DNA from: Deltaproteobacteria bacterium
GTDB lineage: Bacteria > Desulfobacterota > Desulfobacteria > Desulfobacterales > C00003060
DNA length: 47,153 nucleotides
Reading direction: 5' to 3'
Assembly: GCA_016930875.1 (NCBI GenBank)
Contig: JAFGFW010000041.1
Coordinates: 1-47,153 of the forward strand
Position 1 is the first letter of the stretch, and the number at the start of each line of letters is the position of its first letter. Shown here one piece after another: positions 8,811-18,412 of the stretch. The notes beneath the pieces were generated by a model, which saw only the letters and a program-made list of their open reading frames with translations, was not told the origin of the DNA and did not search any database. The translations under genes were made by a program, and so were the position numbers.

Positions 8811-9530
8811 TCAGAAGGCCAGATCCGTCGTCCACACCTCCCAGACCTTGCCCACAAGGTCGGGCCCGGGTTTGAGTGTTGGTCTGCCCGGTTGCCAGCC
8901 CGATGGGGTGGCTTCTGCACCCTTGGTCTTTCGGATCAGTTGAAAGGCCTGGATTTGTCGAATCAACTCGCTCACGTTCCGACCCACTGGCGGGGCCAGT
9001 ATCTCAACAGCCTGAATGACCCCATCTGGATCAATAATAAAGCGGCCACGGACGTTCACGCCAGCGGCCTCGTCATAAACCCCGTAGACGGAACCGATCT
9101 TTCCCGCAGCATCTGAGATCATAGGAAAGGGAACTCCGCCTTTCACCATCTTGGAGAGCTCTTCCTCCTGCCATATCTTGTGCACAAAATGACTGTCCAC
9201 GCTGGCCGCCAGCAACTCAACGCCCAGTTTTTTCAGCTCCTTATATTTGGTGGCAACTGCCGCCAACTCTGTGGGTCAGACAAACGTAAAATCCCCAGGG
9301 TAAAAGCACAAGACCACCCACTTTCCCAGATAGTCTGAGAGTTTCATCTGTATGAACTTGCCTTTGTGAAATGCCGGAGCTTGAAAATCCGGAGCCTTGG
9401 CCCCTATTTTGGCTACTGTCATCGCTACCCCCTTTGTCTTTCCCTCGTCTTTTTCATGAACTTCCTCCTTTACGGACTCACCAACCGCTGCACCCATTGG
9501 TTTCCCACAGCCAATGTCCATATCTTCCAT
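8811..9530 (-). CDS. Selenocysteine-containing peroxiredoxin (TGA read as Sec85)
   Basis: The frame reads through one TGA (9276-9278) exactly where AhpC/Prx6-type peroxiredoxins have the peroxidatic cysteine: GDFTFV-U-PTE, followed without a break by a complete C-terminal half ([38 protein letters not shown]). The protein has 239 residues including Sec85. Other cysteines are C8 (IGCGKP) and C75; the usual C-terminal resolving Cys is absent (ATPSGW), so it may act as a 1-Sec enzyme. It would reduce H2O2 or organic peroxides. Sec forms of peroxiredoxin are known from clostridia and deltaproteobacteria. The ATG at 9530 has a strong GGGAGGTGA site. A SECIS-like hairpin follows the TGA. Standard gene callers would split it in two. 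Confidence 0.88.
9247..9266 (-). promoter_or_regulatory. SECIS-like hairpin for the Sec-peroxiredoxin
   Basis: Counting from the base after the TGA, nucleotides 10-29 form TTGGCGGC-AGTT-GCCACCAA: an 8-pair stem with one C/A mismatch and an AGUU loop. Position and a GU-containing loop agree with bacterial SECIS elements read by SelB. The glutaredoxin TGA at 23189 is followed by a hairpin with the same AGUU loop. Confidence 0.7.
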
Positions 9531-9597
9531 CAAATCACCTCCCATGAATAGGCCATTAGTCGCTTGCCATTTGTCACCTGTCATCCGTCATTTTCAG

Positions 9598-12603: not shown

Positions 12604-13131
12604 TCAAAGCCCTTTTTTCTCAAACCATCGAAAAAGGGCTAGTCCTCCCATAATAAAGATAGGGATAATGACCCAGTGGTTCAGACTGAGTATCTCGGGC
12701 ACAGTGATCTTGCCAAAATCTGCCCATGTTAAGACCGTTTTCTTCAGGCTCGGATACACCTCTGCAAAGAGCGCTGCTCCGGCCAGCATTCCCAGGATAC
12801 CCCATAGTCCATCCCATCGACCTTCACCTAGAGCACCAACCGCGGTCCCGGGACAATAGCCCAACAATCCCCAGCCACCCCCAAAGATGAGTCCACCAAC
12901 AATATTGCCTCCTAAGATGGTAGGCTTGACAGAAAGTTTGGCTAACCCAAGATCGAAAAGTATGTAAACCCCTACCATGCTAACCAGGATGCTCGAGAGC
13001 ATGAACTTGACGATAGTCATATCCATAAGACGCATTGCACCAAGCTGCTTGTCGTACCGGATGACGCCGGCTTTTTGCAGTAAAAAGCCAAAGAGAATGC
13101 CAGCTATCAGCCCGTAAGTCAGTATTCTCAT
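12604..13131 (-). CDS. YeeE/YedE-family transporter, second half-size subunit
   Basis: A 175-residue membrane protein with about five hydrophobic helices and the family motif GLLGYCPGTAVGA, the equivalent of the second cysteine-bearing repeat of full-length YeeE/YedE. The family imports thiosulfate or other sulfane-sulfur species (or, in the YedE branch, is linked to selenium). Half-size pairs such as this are known as PmpA/PmpB-type genes. Its start overlaps the stop of the Sec-containing partner as ATGA, so the two subunits are made together and probably form one transporter. GAGAGGTGATCGCAC precedes the ATG. The Cys in GYCPG is a normal TGC codon, unlike in the partner. Confidence 0.88.
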   Translation of the reverse strand: MRILTYGLIAGILFGFLLQKAGVIRYDKQLGAMRLMDMTIVKFMLSSILVSMVGVYILFDLGLAKLSVKPTILGGNIVGGLIFGGGWGLLGYCPGTAVGALGEGRWDGLWGILGMLAGAALFAEVYPSLKKTVLTWADFGKITVPEILSLNHWVIIPIFIMGGLALFRWFEKKGL

Positions 13132-13655
13132 GTGCGATCACCTCTCCCATAAAGGGCACGAGCAACGATGATGCCACCTACAAAAAAGCAAATCAAGCCA
13201 ACGTATCCACTCACTGCTAGCTGAAGCGAGCCGCCCAGCCCATGGCCGCTCGGTCAGCCACCGGCCAGACGCGCTCCAAATATGGCTACAAGTCCACCTG
13301 TAAAGGCGCAAAGGCCTCGCTTGATCCGGCTCGGACCAAAACGCGCCTCCCACATATCGGGCAGGGCCTTCCATTGGAAACTACCACTGGTTGTCGACGC
13401 AATCAAAGATCCGACAAAAATTCCTGCTACAAACATCCACTGCCAGTCGATCTTTGGCACCTTTTTGACAAAATAATCCATCCTGGCTACCCGCTCGGCA
13501 TTGAAGCGCTTTTCGATCATGCCTGCCGAGCGTACAAAACTGGTTGACGCGCCAATGACCTTGCCTGCAAACCACACAGACAGGATGAACACCATGCCAC
13601 TCAGCGCCCCAGCTAGGTACGGGCTCCAGCCTTTGCCTTCCATCATACGTATCAT
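13128..13655 (-). CDS. YeeE/YedE-family transporter, first half-size subunit, with in-frame TGA (probable Sec134)
   Basis: Reading through the TGA at 13254-13256 gives a 175-residue membrane protein: ARLAGG-U-PSGHGLGG, then further hydrophobic helices and a stop overlapping the next start (ATGA). In YeeE/YedE proteins the motif is GGC-T/P-SGHG, so TGA replaces the conserved cysteine that lies in the sulfur-transfer path of YeeE. Conservation on both sides and perfect operon coupling argue against a dead gene. A possible hairpin follows the TGA but is less typical than the other two SECIS candidates. AAGGGGACGG precedes the ATG at 13655. The alternative is a nonsense mutation of TGC. Transport of thiosulfate, sulfane sulfur or selenium species is inferred from the family and the neighbouring sulfur oxygenase reductase. 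Confidence 0.75.
13220..13239 (-). promoter_or_regulatory. Possible SECIS hairpin in the yedE-like gene
   Basis: Nucleotides 15-34 after the TGA can form GCTG/CAGC closed by GCG/CGC around a GCT loop, at the distance expected for a bacterial SECIS. An alternative fold pairs CGAGC (2-6) with GCTCG (23-27). The AGUU loop of the other two candidates is missing, so support is modest. Confidence 0.35.
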
Positions 13656-13698: not shown

Positions 13699-14736
13699 CT
13701 AGACAACCATGGACCGCCAGCCTGGTTCTTCCATTATGGGCTGGAAAAACATGATGTAAGGACCTCTCATGAGGTGCGCCATCACCCCATCATCGTGAAT
13801 TTTTCTGATCCTGTGGTTGACCAACACCTTGGCAAAACCTAACTGTGCCATCTCGACCGCATCCCATTCGCTGTGAATCAAATACTCCGGAGGGCTGGGC
13901 ATGGCTTCAGGCGTTTTGAATAAGGGCTTGGGATCTTTCGGTGGATTTGCACCCAAAGTCTGTAAGGATTGTGCCATCGATTTCGGATCCATCATGAAGC
14001 TCCCCAGAGCGCAAACGCCCATCTGTTTAAGGATCATATATCCCAAAAAACCGGTCGAATCCGACACGGCCTCCATGGTGGCAATAGCGCCCTCCTCAAA
14101 AGCCTTTTCTCTGCCAGGTCTGACGGTATGCTCCGCCATGGCCACACAACGACGGGGTGTAGCAAAACGGATGAATTCCTTTTGCTGCTGCATGTCTGTG
14201 GCAAGATCGGTGATCTGGCCCATAGACCTTATGGGTGCCATCTTGGCTTTGACGATCCTGTAAACCGGCTCCCATGGACCCTCAATGACCATGGACAAAC
14301 AGCGCCCGCACAGTTCAAAGACTCGGTCAAACTGCTTTTGATGAAAGTCGTCGTGGTCCTGCCACCTCTTCCACATGGTATACTGATAGTTGCGAATAGG
14401 GTTGAGTTCCTTTTCCATGTGGACTTTTCCTCCACCGAATCGACCAGCAAGAGGGAGAATTCCGGTCTGGATGTTGGCCTGGAAACCAACAAAACCCGGG
14501 TGGGTGGCCGTTGTGATACACACTTTTGGCCCAACCTTTTTCATCAACCGGAAACTTTCTTCGTTGTTGGACACTTTTGACATGTTCAGTGCTGCATAGA
14601 TAGGGCTATCAGGCTCTTCAGTTGTCTGACGTGCATGGGCGAAAGGCAATCCTGCCGCAAAGCTGGCGCCACCGGCGGCCAACGCAGCTATCTTCATGAA
14701 ATTCCTGCGATCCATTCTTGTTTCATTCTCTGACAT
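13699..14736 (-). CDS. sor: Sulfur oxygenase reductase with Tat signal peptide
   Basis: After a 42-residue extension the protein aligns with sulfur oxygenase reductase, keeping every catalytic position at a constant offset of 42 from the Acidianus enzyme: C73 (C31, GPKVC), iron ligands H128 and H132 (DHDDFH), C143/C146 (LCGRC) and E156 (GPWEP). The enzyme disproportionates elemental sulfur with O2 to sulfite, thiosulfate and sulfide. The extension is a clear Tat signal (DRRNFMK, hydrophobic AALAAGGASFAAG, cleavage near AHA), implying export of the folded iron enzyme to the periplasm; the well-studied SORs are cytoplasmic. GGGAGGTAAGCT precedes the ATG. It lies between a Tll0287-like gene and the paired YeeE/YedE transporter, suggesting its products are imported. 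Confidence 0.9.
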   Translation of the reverse strand: MSENETRMDRRNFMKIAALAAGGASFAAGLPFAHARQTTEEPDSPIYAALNMSKVSNNEESFRLMKKVGPKVCITTATHPGFVGFQANIQTGILPLAGRFGGGKVHMEKELNPIRNYQYTMWKRWQDHDDFHQKQFDRVFELCGRCLSMVIEGPWEPVYRIVKAKMAPIRSMGQITDLATDMQQQKEFIRFATPRRCVAMAEHTVRPGREKAFEEGAIATMEAVSDSTGFLGYMILKQMGVCALGSFMMDPKSMAQSLQTLGANPPKDPKPLFKTPEAMPSPPEYLIHSEWDAVEMAQLGFAKVLVNHRIRKIHDDGVMAHLMRGPYIMFFQPIMEEPGWRSMVV

Positions 14737-14805: not shown

Positions 14806-15174
14806 TCATGCCTTCTTTTTGGGGTTTTCCCCAGAGGCCCTACGTTTTTCAAAATCTTCCAGTACCCTTCGCTCCCACGCATCTGGGGTGTTGGCCGGAT
14901 TGTGTACCTTGAGCGCTCTATGCCCGACGAGCCAGCCTGTCCCCTCTGAAACGCGGGCACCTATTTCCGGCGCAATCCTTTTGCAGACGTCAATAGCCTG
15001 AATAGGGCCACCGCTTTGCATAACCTTTTTCAACTCGCTCTTGAGTTCACCCCCAAACTCTTTGACAACCGAACGGCTTGCAATGATGCGTTCCTGTTGA
15101 TCGACTGCCAGAGCCACAGAAGATAACAGGCCTGTTACCAAAATAAGAAATATTACTTTGTTCATGTTCGCCAT
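14806..15174 (-). CDS. Exported Tll0287-like (DUF3365) protein
   Basis: A 122-residue protein with a signal peptide (hydrophobic VIFLILVTGLLSSVALA) and one Tll0287-like domain. The conserved features are QAIDVCKRIAPEIG and the ETGW-like STGEGW region followed by LKVHNPANTPDAWE. Members are periplasmic, and some bind haem or act as sensor domains; here no CXXCH is present, only one Cys, so covalent haem is not supported. It lies 29 bases after the octahaem cytochrome gene and 69 before the sulfur oxygenase reductase. Start is ATG at 15174 or 15165; neither has a strong ribosome site. It may be a redox or structural partner of the cytochrome (inference). Confidence 0.75.
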   Translation of the reverse strand: MANMNKVIFLILVTGLLSSVALAVDQQERIIASRSVVKEFGGELKSELKKVMQSGGPIQAIDVCKRIAPEIGARVSEGTGWLVGHRALKVHNPANTPDAWERRVLEDFEKRRASGENPKKKA

Positions 15175-15203: not shown

Positions 15204-16685
15204 TCACCATTTTTTCACCTTAAATTCCAGCCAATCTACCATCTCCTGAATGTTTTTTGACATATACCACCGTCCATCGGCGAAAACACCATAGTCGGCT
15301 CCGGCCATGGCAGAGGCAAAACGGGTTGAATTGGCAAAGAAGAGCCACTGTTCTACCCATTTTTTCTCAATAGCCTCATTAAAGATGCTGTCCTTCTGCG
15401 CAAGGCCTTTGGCGGCCCCCTTTTCCCACGCCGAAAGGAGAACCTTGGTGGCGGTCAGCGTCATCTCGTTCGTAATCTTGATTGTGTTCTCAAGGCGGGC
15501 AAACTGTCCGTCCACCCACCCTTGGCTGTGGCAAGCAGCACAAACGCCCTGCATGGTCTTTTTTCTCTTGGCCTGCTCCTTTGCGTTGATCAAAAAGGGA
15601 GTCACAGGCTCTCCGGTCAACTCCGTTGGCAAAGGCAATCCAGCCTTGTTTTTGATAATCGTAGTATCCGGCGAGTCGGGATGGGCATGGGCGTAAATCA
15701 ACCCGAATATCCGCCAAGAGAGCCGATCATTCATCTGGTGGGTCCGCTCTGCCAGTACTTCGCCTTCTTCAGAAACTACGAGGCTCGCATGGCAGGTGGC
15801 ACAGGTGGGGGCCGTGAAGTCTTTTCCCACGGTCCAGGGAACCGGCTTGTAATTCCAAGCCTTCCCGAGGCCGGAATAGATGTTTCCATGTTTGCTAACC
15901 GAATACACCTTATATGCCGGCACATCAGGACCCTTATGACATTCAGAGCAGGTATAAGGCTTTCTGGCCATTTCAATTGAAAATTGATGTCGTGTATGAC
16001 AAGAAGCACAAGACCCCATACTCCCGTCAGGATTGATCCGCCCAACGCCCTGATTGGGCAAGCCGGAAAGAACAGGAAACGACATTTCACCGTGGGCCGT
16101 GTCTCTTGCCATTGTACCTTTAACCTCAACAACCGTACCGTGGCAGTAAAAACAAGAATCGGCATCAGTCTCAGCATCCGGAGCCTTTTGGGTCGTCTTC
16201 ATGTCCCTAAAGGACTGGATGCCGTTCACCGAGTCTACCAGGGCACGGTACACCGGATTGTTCTGAAGGTTTCCATAGGCACGAGACATGATGTTTTTGT
16301 GATATTGTCCCGCTTCCACGGGATGACAGGTAGCACAATCCTCAGGGGTCACCACCACATGGACCTGGTAGCCGTTGTGTTCAAAGGTGTCCTGATGCCT
16401 TTCGGGGTTCAAGGTGTGACACTCTGCACACCCGACGACAACACGCGCCAGTTTGTTGGGCACATCATCGAACGAAACCCGCCGCTTCTTTAAAATCATA
16501 CTCCTTGCTGCCCTGGGGGTGACCCTGGCCATGCGGCCCTTCTGCCAGTTCGCCACAATTCCCGGATGCTCCGAGGTGTGGCATTCAATACAAGTCCCGG
16601 TCTCTTCGCTGATTCGGCCATTGGCCCCAAGGGCCGTCTGGGCGAAAAGAAATACCATCAGCATAGCAAACATGCACTTCTTCAT
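15204..16685 (-). CDS. Octahaem cytochrome c, hydroxylamine-oxidoreductase-like
   Basis: A 493-residue exported protein with exactly eight CXXCH motifs (CIECH, CAECH, CATCH, CFYCH, CASCH, CSECH, CATCH, CAACH) after an N-terminal signal peptide. Spacing and the long C-terminal helical part match the octahaem HAO family. Relatives oxidise hydroxylamine or, in anaerobes (epsilon-HAO type), reduce nitrite or hydroxylamine; other relatives handle sulfur oxyanions, so the substrate is open. AGGAGGTGCTACG precedes the ATG at 16685. It is the first gene of the operon with the Tll0287-like protein, sulfur oxygenase reductase and YeeE/YedE pair, which makes periplasmic sulfur or nitrogen electron transfer likely. 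Confidence 0.9.
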   Translation of the reverse strand: MKKCMFAMLMVFLFAQTALGANGRISEETGTCIECHTSEHPGIVANWQKGRMARVTPRAARSMILKKRRVSFDDVPNKLARVVVGCAECHTLNPERHQDTFEHNGYQVHVVVTPEDCATCHPVEAGQYHKNIMSRAYGNLQNNPVYRALVDSVNGIQSFRDMKTTQKAPDAETDADSCFYCHGTVVEVKGTMARDTAHGEMSFPVLSGLPNQGVGRINPDGSMGSCASCHTRHQFSIEMARKPYTCSECHKGPDVPAYKVYSVSKHGNIYSGLGKAWNYKPVPWTVGKDFTAPTCATCHASLVVSEEGEVLAERTHQMNDRLSWRIFGLIYAHAHPDSPDTTIIKNKAGLPLPTELTGEPVTPFLINAKEQAKRKKTMQGVCAACHSQGWVDGQFARLENTIKITNEMTLTATKVLLSAWEKGAAKGLAQKDSIFNEAIEKKWVEQWLFFANSTRFASAMAGADYGVFADGRWYMSKNIQEMVDWLEFKVKKW

Positions 16686-17344: not shown

Positions 17345-17783
17345 GCCTACACGAACCAAAGATAGAGCATCGCCACGACCTGCATGGCCGGATGCAGTTT
17401 GACATGTGGCGCCTGTTTGACTTCATCCATTAGAATCGGGTCGGCCTGGAAGTCTTCCATGATGTTGATGATGTGAATTTCTCGCGCATAATGGAGCATG
17501 TCCCGTGCGGCCGTGAAAGCGGAGTTGCCACCTCCTGCCACCGCGACGCGCTTGTCACGGTAAAGTGGAGCGTCACAGGTGGCGCAAAACGCAATGCCGT
17601 GGCCGATAAGCCGGTGCTCTCCCGGCACGCCAAGGCGGCGGCCTTACCCGCACAGTAGATGACGCAGCGCCCACGGTAGCTCTTACCATCGGCTGTGGTA
17701 ACGCGAAAGCCGTGGTTGGTGTGTACCATATCAGCGCGAATCTTCTCGTTAGCCATCGCCATCTGATGGCCAACGTGGACCAT
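17345..17783 (-). pseudogene. Thioredoxin reductase fragment, frameshifted and truncated
   Basis: Two overlapping frames together give the middle of a thioredoxin reductase: GRCVIYCAGKAAAL in one, then after a shift near 17630 IAFCATCDAPLYRDKRVAVAGGGNSAFTAARDML in the next, including the redox pair CATC and the NAD(P) glycine motif. The N-terminal FAD part and the C-terminus are missing. Upstream it abuts the ion channel gene, whose frame runs into it. A full thioredoxin reductase is present at 21763-22950, so this is a decayed extra copy. Confidence 0.8.
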
Positions 17784-18412
17784 CTGGGGAGGAGTTCTTC
17801 CTTCATATGAAGAATTGCCCTAAGAGTTTCCGTAAAGGCTTCTTGCTCAAGCAAATTGGGATTTTCCCACAAGGTGAGTAGGAAGTAACCATTTTGCTCG
17901 AGCAGACTTTTCAAATCTTGCAGTCTGAGCTTTTGCGGATCTACCTCATATTGGTACTTGTCAAGAAGGGCTTTTACATCTAGAAAATCTTCTTCAGACC
18001 AATCACTTTTGACAATGAGTTTTTTTCTAATGACATCCACTTGGGGGTCGTATCCGGTAAAATAAGATAGGATTTTGGTGCCTAATTCGCTGAAAAACAT
18101 GCCGACTACCATGTTCAATTTCTGCTCTCTGATCTTTTTCTCTCTCCTATTCAGCAACATCTCTGTAGCGTTGGCAACTACCCCTAGGAAGGTGCCTACA
18201 CCGGTAATAATCAACACAACGGCTAGGATTTTACCAAGCTGGGTTGCCGGATGGATGTCTCCGTACCCGACCGTGGTGATGGTGACAATGCTAAAATAAA
18301 AGGCGTCTGCTGGTGATAAGCTTTCAATGAACATGAAGCCGAAGGTGCCGACAATAATAATAATGAACAACAGTAGAATAAAAACTCGTAACCTAAATGC
18401 CAGTGTATCCAT
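17573..18412 (-). CDS. Two-helix potassium channel with aberrant C-terminus
   Basis: Residues 10-28 and 61-82 are membrane helices around a pore loop with the K+ selectivity filter TTVGYGD (about 46-52), typical of Ion_trans_2 channels. A cytoplasmic helical part follows to about residue 210 (HMKEELLPRW). From there to the stop at 17573 the reading frame crosses thioredoxin-reductase debris out of frame, giving a meaningless Arg/Trp/Pro-rich tail. The original C-terminus was evidently lost at a junction near 17785. The pore part could still work; whether the gene is expressed is unknown. ATG at 18412. Confidence 0.65.
   Translation of the reverse strand: MDTLAFRLRVFILLLFIIIIVGTFGFMFIESLSPADAFYFSIVTITTVGYGDIHPATQLGKILAVVLIITGVGTFLGVVANATEMLLNRREKKIREQKLNMVVGMFFSELGTKILSYFTGYDPQVDVIRKKLIVKSDWSEEDFLDVKALLDKYQYEVDPQKLRLQDLKSLLEQNGYFLLTLWENPNLLEQEAFTETLRAILHMKEELLPRWSTLAIRWRWLTRRFALIWYTPTTAFALPQPMVRATVGAASSTVRVRPPPWRAGRAPAYRPRHCVLRHL

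Follow-up and report, generated by a model that had tools for sequence, protein, structure and literature searches.

A predicted selenocysteine at the TsuA first-cysteine position of a half-size YeeE/YedE transporter subunit from a Desulfobacterales bacterium

Introduction

Members of the YeeE/YedE family (PF04143) include the thiosulfate transporter TsuA, in which, according to PMC11073785, C293, C91 and C22 are the first, second and third cysteines, thiosulfate lies near the outer cysteine, and the substrate is relayed through hydrogen bonds. The fold also occurs divided between two proteins; PMC11582611 describes PmpA and PmpB as YeeE halves with Cys293- and Cys91-type residues, for which a heterodimer is proposed. 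Two reviews connect the family with selenium. That of 2026 (PMC13188914) includes YeeE/YedE (PF04143), with the motif GUxSG, in its set of transporters 'predicted to contain Sec residues', that of 2022 (PMC9312934) also names it as a predicted selenoprotein family, and WP_012471001.1 is the example given. A redox function is assumed for most selenoproteins of prokaryotes (PMC9312934), and the roles of predicted Sec-containing transporters are considered to need further study (PMC13188914).

Within the literature searched, and in the portions of each source at hand, YeeE is named as a selenoprotein in these two reviews only; the main texts of two papers that they cite, PMC2398784 and PMC5029168, contain 0 occurrences of YeeE or YedE and of YeeE or pfam04143, respectively. 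A literature search that covered few subscription papers and no supplements found no description of Sec at the position of Cys293.

We analysed a window of 47,153 nucleotides (positions 1 to 47,153 of contig JAFGFW010000041.1, assembly GCA_016930875.1, from a bacterium of the Desulfobacterales), in which a first-pass annotation, made from the letters alone, had proposed a YeeE/YedE subunit with selenocysteine in the transport pore, a use of Sec that it presented as apparently undescribed. This last point is not supported, given the predictions in PMC13188914 and PMC9312934. The gene is well supported as a selenocysteine gene, real and known in kind by prediction, with a function that we infer. 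Less described are the position of Sec in the pore, the repeated exchange of Sec and Cys, and, in two genomes of the genus, a sulfur oxygenase/reductase (SOR) homologue with a Tat-like signal next to the Sec gene.

Results

A half-size YeeE gene with one internal TGA

The features of the locus, all on the minus strand, are as follows.

12604..13131, minus strand: partner subunit (PmpB-like, N-terminal half; PF04143 profile 18-151; sole cysteine Cys93 in GYCPG)
13128..13655, minus strand: half-size YeeE protein with predicted Sec (PmpA-like, C-terminal half of the YeeE fold; 175 aa plus stop; from translation and PF04143)
13254..13256, minus strand: predicted Sec134, an in-frame TGA aligned with TsuA Cys293 (from alignments; only TGA, TGC or TGT in 106 distinct loci)
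13220..13239, minus strand: SECIS-like hairpin (bases 18-37 from the T of TGA, 15-34 past TGA; loop starts GG)
13699..14736, minus strand: SOR homologue with a presumed N-terminal twin-arginine-like signal (PF07682, 471.6 bits; SOR matches in the PDB)
14806..15174, minus strand: Tll0287-like protein (PF11845, 30.8 bits)
15204..16685, minus strand: multihaem c-type cytochrome (PF13447, 74.9 bits)

The frame comprises 176 codons, read from 13655 to 13128, and contains a single internal TGA at 13256-13254, which lies in the context ARLAGG-U-PSGHGLGG when TGA is translated as U. Its final stop is also a TGA (13130-13128), which overlaps the ATG of the partner gene (13131) as ATGA; since the same codon terminates the gene, TGA cannot have been reassigned throughout as an ordinary sense codon. 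The first-pass annotation had given the coordinates of the gene exactly, leaving the minus strand unstated, and had correctly recognised both the overlap with the next gene and the replacement of Cys by TGA in a GG-C-x-SGHG motif, relatives having Cys at this place (GGC-PSGHG). We conclude that the in-frame TGA very probably encodes selenocysteine.

Two probable halves of a YeeE-like transporter

The Sec protein matches PF04143 with 73.7 bits (gathering threshold 27) over positions 174-310 of the 310-position profile, corresponding to the C-terminal half. Both phmmer and profile alignment place Sec134 at Cys293 of TsuA from S. thermophila, and the only cysteine of the partner, Cys93, corresponds to Cys91, in agreement with the earlier proposals that Sec occupies the conserved transport cysteine and that the partner keeps a normal Cys in GYCPG; partner Ile24 aligns with Cys22, leaving the third cysteine of TsuA with no counterpart. 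A homologue of the partner starts within 120 bases downstream in 42/42 TGA loci and 62/64 Cys loci, the exceptions being L034 and L043, the latter with a weak match. From gene layout and these residues, the pair looks like a two-subunit sulfur importer of the PmpA/PmpB type. Judged by its scores, it is no TsuA equivalog, the equivalog models giving 38.8 against a cut-off of 645 and 38.3 against 400, far below both; the TusA/YeeD family (TsuB/YeeD) had no match among the window proteins scanned.

AlphaFold modelled the half alone with low confidence (pTM 0.48; eight helices of various length in 175 aa), and with this low-confidence model Foldseek returned no PDB match and VIA-align a single chain, YeeE 6lep (Z 4.0). 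These predicted-structure results were set aside and are not used as evidence.

The substrate of such a pair might be selenium rather than sulfur, as proposed for YedE/FdhT, in which case Sec would act as a selenium sensor or ligand. YedE belongs to the same superfamily, a YedE-like protein in Methanococcus selenium transport is cited in PMC11582611, and the selenium YedE models (NF033796, TIGR04112) do match weakly. Their scores are, however, far below the cut-offs (20.1 against 350; for the partner 27.2 against 200 and 22.6 against 350), selA, selB and selD lie on contigs other than that of the window (C41), and SOR, pyridine-nucleotide disulfide oxidoreductase and peroxiredoxin, the few recurring neighbours among those scanned (described below), are all connected with sulfur or thiols. 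We consider selenium transport very unlikely.

TGA or a cysteine codon at one position

The homologue set combined 80 stretches from genome contigs, the best of 185 that were confirmed, with 29 loci from 60 relatives, the window's own included, making 109 loci, or 106 distinct loci after removal of three duplicates. At the aligned codon the 109 loci have TGA (43), TGC (47) or TGT (19), and the distinct loci TGA (42, one of them a broken second copy from the same genome on C140), TGC (45) or TGT (19), giving 64 Cys loci; no other codon occurs in either count. The first-pass annotation had suggested looking for homologues that share the TGA codon and had named random stop positions in close relatives as a refutation of its reading: such homologues are present, and random positions are not what the relatives show.

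The pattern extends to a phylum sample of 395 genomes, in which a search at E 1e-35 finds a homologue in 85 genomes and one with an internal TGA in 41 of the 85. TGA stands at the exact Sec column in 40/40 further TGA-flagged loci of this sample outside G000 and G024, whose TGA loci are covered by the count of 109, and eight new Cys-type loci have TGC (7) or TGT (1) at the aligned codon. One distant match came from a plasmid collection and none from a phage collection.

The frame beyond the TGA is under purifying selection, with constraint at least as strong as before it: among 41 TGA genes (820 pairs, the broken copy excluded), pN is 0.206 and pS 0.779 for codons 14-37 after the TGA, beyond the hairpin, and 0.309 and 0.737 for the 37 codons before it.

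The second copy (L039/L126; G000:C140, 1421-1942) carries two extra in-frame stops, TAG and TAA, besides the Sec TGA, and has a partner gene at 894-1418; it is either a decaying paralogue or an assembly error.

These observations bear on the simplest alternative, that the TGA of the window gene is an ordinary stop, produced by nonsense mutation, sequencing error or pseudogene formation, and that the rest of the frame is dead. The genome is a 212-contig assembly and the C140 copy, with its TAG and TAA, might be cited in favour of this explanation, but TGA occupies the exact codon in 42/106 distinct loci with Cys in all others, the frame is conserved beyond it, the 3' part is intact together with its gene overlap, and a hairpin is specific to TGA genes (see below). 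The homologues refute the explanation in practice, and its probability is negligible.

A SECIS-like hairpin specific to TGA genes

The hairpin was compared between the 42 TGA genes and 47 of the 64 Cys genes, those with more than 50% identity. Its inner three pairs (bases 22-24 with 30-32 or 31-33 from TGA) are present in 42/42 TGA genes and 1/47 Cys genes, the complete seven-pair stem in 35/42 and 1/47, and the mean minimum free energy of bases 16-39 is -10.6 against -4.4 kcal/mol. As the positions for this test were chosen after viewing the folds of the first set, loci outside that set serve as the check; among these the inner pairs occur in 36/36 TGA and 1/5 Cys loci, and all seven pairs in 23/36 TGA loci. 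The SECIS search that had been recommended at the outset has thereby produced, in silico, a SECIS-like hairpin past the TGA that distinguishes TGA genes from Cys genes. A generic SECIS pattern was powerless, matching 42/42 TGA and 47/47 Cys rows alike. Nor do the loop letters discriminate, since the loop starts with GG in 40/42 TGA genes (AG in 2) and also in 46/47 Cys genes.

In an alignment of 72 distinct TGA sequences the proportion of paired cells is 87.1%, falling to 52.6% at most when the partner is slid. Changes on both sides affect 29 cells against a shuffled mean of 8.6, while neither the pairs with double changes nor the further pair types exceeded the shuffles in these 72 sequences. 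Loss of pair 21-34 is offset by pair 21-33 in 6/6 sequences that have lost it. Applied to all 72 sequences together, RNAalifold returned a different, weak hairpin (-1.66 kcal/mol), with its cells paired in 99% of the TGA rows and 76% of the Cys rows, and the miss is likely due to the presence of two registers. When the sequences were split by register (52 with a bulge, 20 without), each subset gave the expected hairpin from column 15 at about -9.3 to -9.9 kcal/mol, of which only the outer stem counts as independent support because the split uses the inner pairs; RNAalifold found no hairpin at that position in the Cys set. Rfam gave no SECIS family at the hairpin up to E 5, where two unrelated sub-threshold matches appeared over 151 bases, and no SECIS match reached the gathering score anywhere in the window. 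At the hairpin, Sec genes mostly encode SLQL or LAQ, and Cys genes MMQL, VMQL or one of many other peptides, a shift that would follow if the choice of amino acids were limited by the RNA.

Two Cys genes, L061 (found again as L139) and L158, are exceptional in that their hairpin is intact. In the tree L061 joins the TGA gene L072 at full support, and looks like a recent loss of Sec. A third Cys gene, L070, is one inner pair short and stands beside a Sec relative, L074. All three are possible cases of recent Sec-to-Cys loss.

Selenocysteine machinery

The genome encodes SelA (616.8 bits), SelB (379.9 bits) and SelD (385.2 bits), as well as a tRNA-Sec (selC, L008; RF01852, 57.1 bits) of which the 5' side is cut by the contig end. 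Two matches passed the RF01852 cut-off; one is a tRNA-Trp according to ARAGORN, and L008 remains tRNA-Sec with the Rfam tRNA clan competing. ARAGORN reported no tRNA-Sec on L008, where the gene is cut by the contig end. All four genes for which the first-pass annotation had suggested a search are therefore present, selC in truncated form, and the lack of selB or selC that it would have taken as grounds for rejection does not apply. The selD gene has its own in-frame TGA (L131, G000:C58:315-1241), and the SelD of this genome is probably itself a selenoprotein.

In the phylum set (80 of the 85 genomes), selA exceeds the cut-off in 38/41 TGA genomes and 37/39 Cys genomes, and being about equally frequent does not discriminate between them. 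G128 and G327 have a TGA gene and no selA match, and G210 has a selA fragment; all three have selB. For G128 and G327 the explanation is either an assembly gap or an unusual Sec synthesis.

The window also contains a second, known selenoprotein gene, encoding the peroxiredoxin PrxU (8811-9584, minus strand), with TGA at 9278-9276 following DFTFV (NF040737, 402.6 bits; cut-off 270).

Exchange of Sec and Cys on the tree

A tree was built from 102 of the 106 proteins, rows shorter than 150 aa or with unread letters being excluded. Parsimony requires at least nine changes of the Sec/Cys label, six of them forced by well-supported branches, on a tree in which the bootstrap has not fully settled, U was entered as C, and the hairpin-coded residues were kept, which would tend to draw Sec rows together. 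As close relatives naturally possess either the Sec or the Cys form of this transporter, comparing the two forms would be a direct way to learn what a selenol does in sulfur import.

Gene neighbourhood

Upstream genes follow on the same strand at gaps of 43 (SOR to Sec gene), 69 and 29 bases, and those for the Tll0287-like protein and the multihaem cytochrome are likely to be on the same transcript. The SOR homologue has its best PDB match in 6qpa (1.2e-91). Its N-terminus is MSENETRMDRRNFMK, which we take to be a twin-arginine-like signal motif, and the model TIGR02811 scores 20.7 bits against a cut-off of 48.45. A full-length SOR containing MDRREFVK also lies beside a Sec gene in G020, and beside the Cys versions of G014 and G005 there is only a C-terminal part (residues 192-345 and 209-345), apparently a remnant in each case. 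With flanks of 1.5 to 4 kb, the SOR link is found in 4/106 loci, all in this genus, and SOR is intact in two genomes only. Among the papers listed by a literature search on SOR, and in the passages of PMC5114278 consulted, no exported SOR appeared.

Apart from the partner gene, most loci have no neighbour in common; clustering of neighbours returned mostly antisense shadows of that gene, and few genes recur. Near 11 loci (7 Sec, 4 Cys) there is a pyridine-nucleotide disulfide oxidoreductase, and near 6/106 (1 Sec, 5 Cys) a peroxiredoxin-like gene, each assigned by Pfam on one representative. That the recurring neighbours are sulfur- or thiol-related leans slightly towards a sulfur rather than a selenium role.

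At 17347-18412 (minus strand), a potassium-channel-like frame (NCBIfam) is followed by overlapping, frame-shifted pieces that by eye resemble thioredoxin reductase, possibly a broken gene.

Discussion

Our preferred reading, to which we assign a probability of about 0.83, is that the gene encodes a genuine selenoprotein, a PmpA-like half with a separate PmpB-like half, in which Sec134 lies in the sulfur transport path together with partner Cys93. The TGA would be read as selenocysteine by way of SelB, tRNA-Sec and the hairpin just 3' of it, all recognised in silico, and the two halves would probably form one hourglass transporter. By analogy with TsuA, Sec134 at the first-cysteine position would contact incoming thiosulfate or another sulfane-sulfur species and hand it to partner Cys93, nearer the cytoplasm; it is from TsuA that we infer a passage of the substrate via the selenol. 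Compared with a thiol, a selenol has higher acidity and is the stronger nucleophile, and would tune the first contact with the substrate, which may come from the putatively exported SOR encoded next door.

A more specific chemistry can be imagined, in which the selenolate binds thiosulfate or sulfane sulfur made outside by a Tat-exported SOR, possibly as a transient Se-S adduct, and passes it to the partner cysteine. The occurrence of an intact SOR in two genomes only lowers the odds of this proposal, which we think unlikely; if true, selenium would serve to carry sulfur through the membrane, a task for which the known transporter is believed to rely on hydrogen bonding to thiols.

We know of no structure of the Sec half with its partner. 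The Sec-Cys pair might act as a redox switch, gating the transporter through a selenenylsulfide under oxidation with no relay of substrate, and it is consistent with this that both residues map onto the transport path of TsuA, that a peroxiredoxin-like gene lies near 6/106 loci (1 Sec, 5 Cys), and that PrxU is encoded in this window. In TsuA, by contrast, the two cysteines are 8.6 A apart and active in transport (PMC11073785), and we regard a switch of this kind as distinctly unlikely.

Read as a selenoprotein half in a sulfur transport path, the Sec gene can be placed among four described systems. With the YedE/FdhT membrane proteins of selenium metabolism it has the superfamily in common, but the scores are far below the cut-offs of their models and selA, selB and selD are on other contigs. 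With the YeeE/YedE selenoproteins of the reviews it shares the Pfam family PF04143, the motif GUxSG (here GUPSG) and the prediction of Sec from TGA; the excerpts of PMC13188914 and PMC9312934 are silent on the position in the pore, the half-size partner, the conservation of a SECIS element and the exchange of Sec and Cys. With TsuA/YeeE (6LEO, 8J4C) the correspondence extends to residues, Sec134 being equivalent to Cys293 and partner Cys93 to Cys91, although here the protein is split between two genes, there is no counterpart of Cys22, and no TsuB/YeeD match occurs among the neighbours scanned. PmpA/PmpB (PMC11582611) are likewise encoded by two adjacent genes, one for the C-terminal half with a Cys293-type residue and one for the N-terminal half with a Cys91-type residue; those proteins have about 130 aa and four transmembrane helices, whereas the present halves have 175 aa each, and the PmpA-like one carries the predicted Sec.
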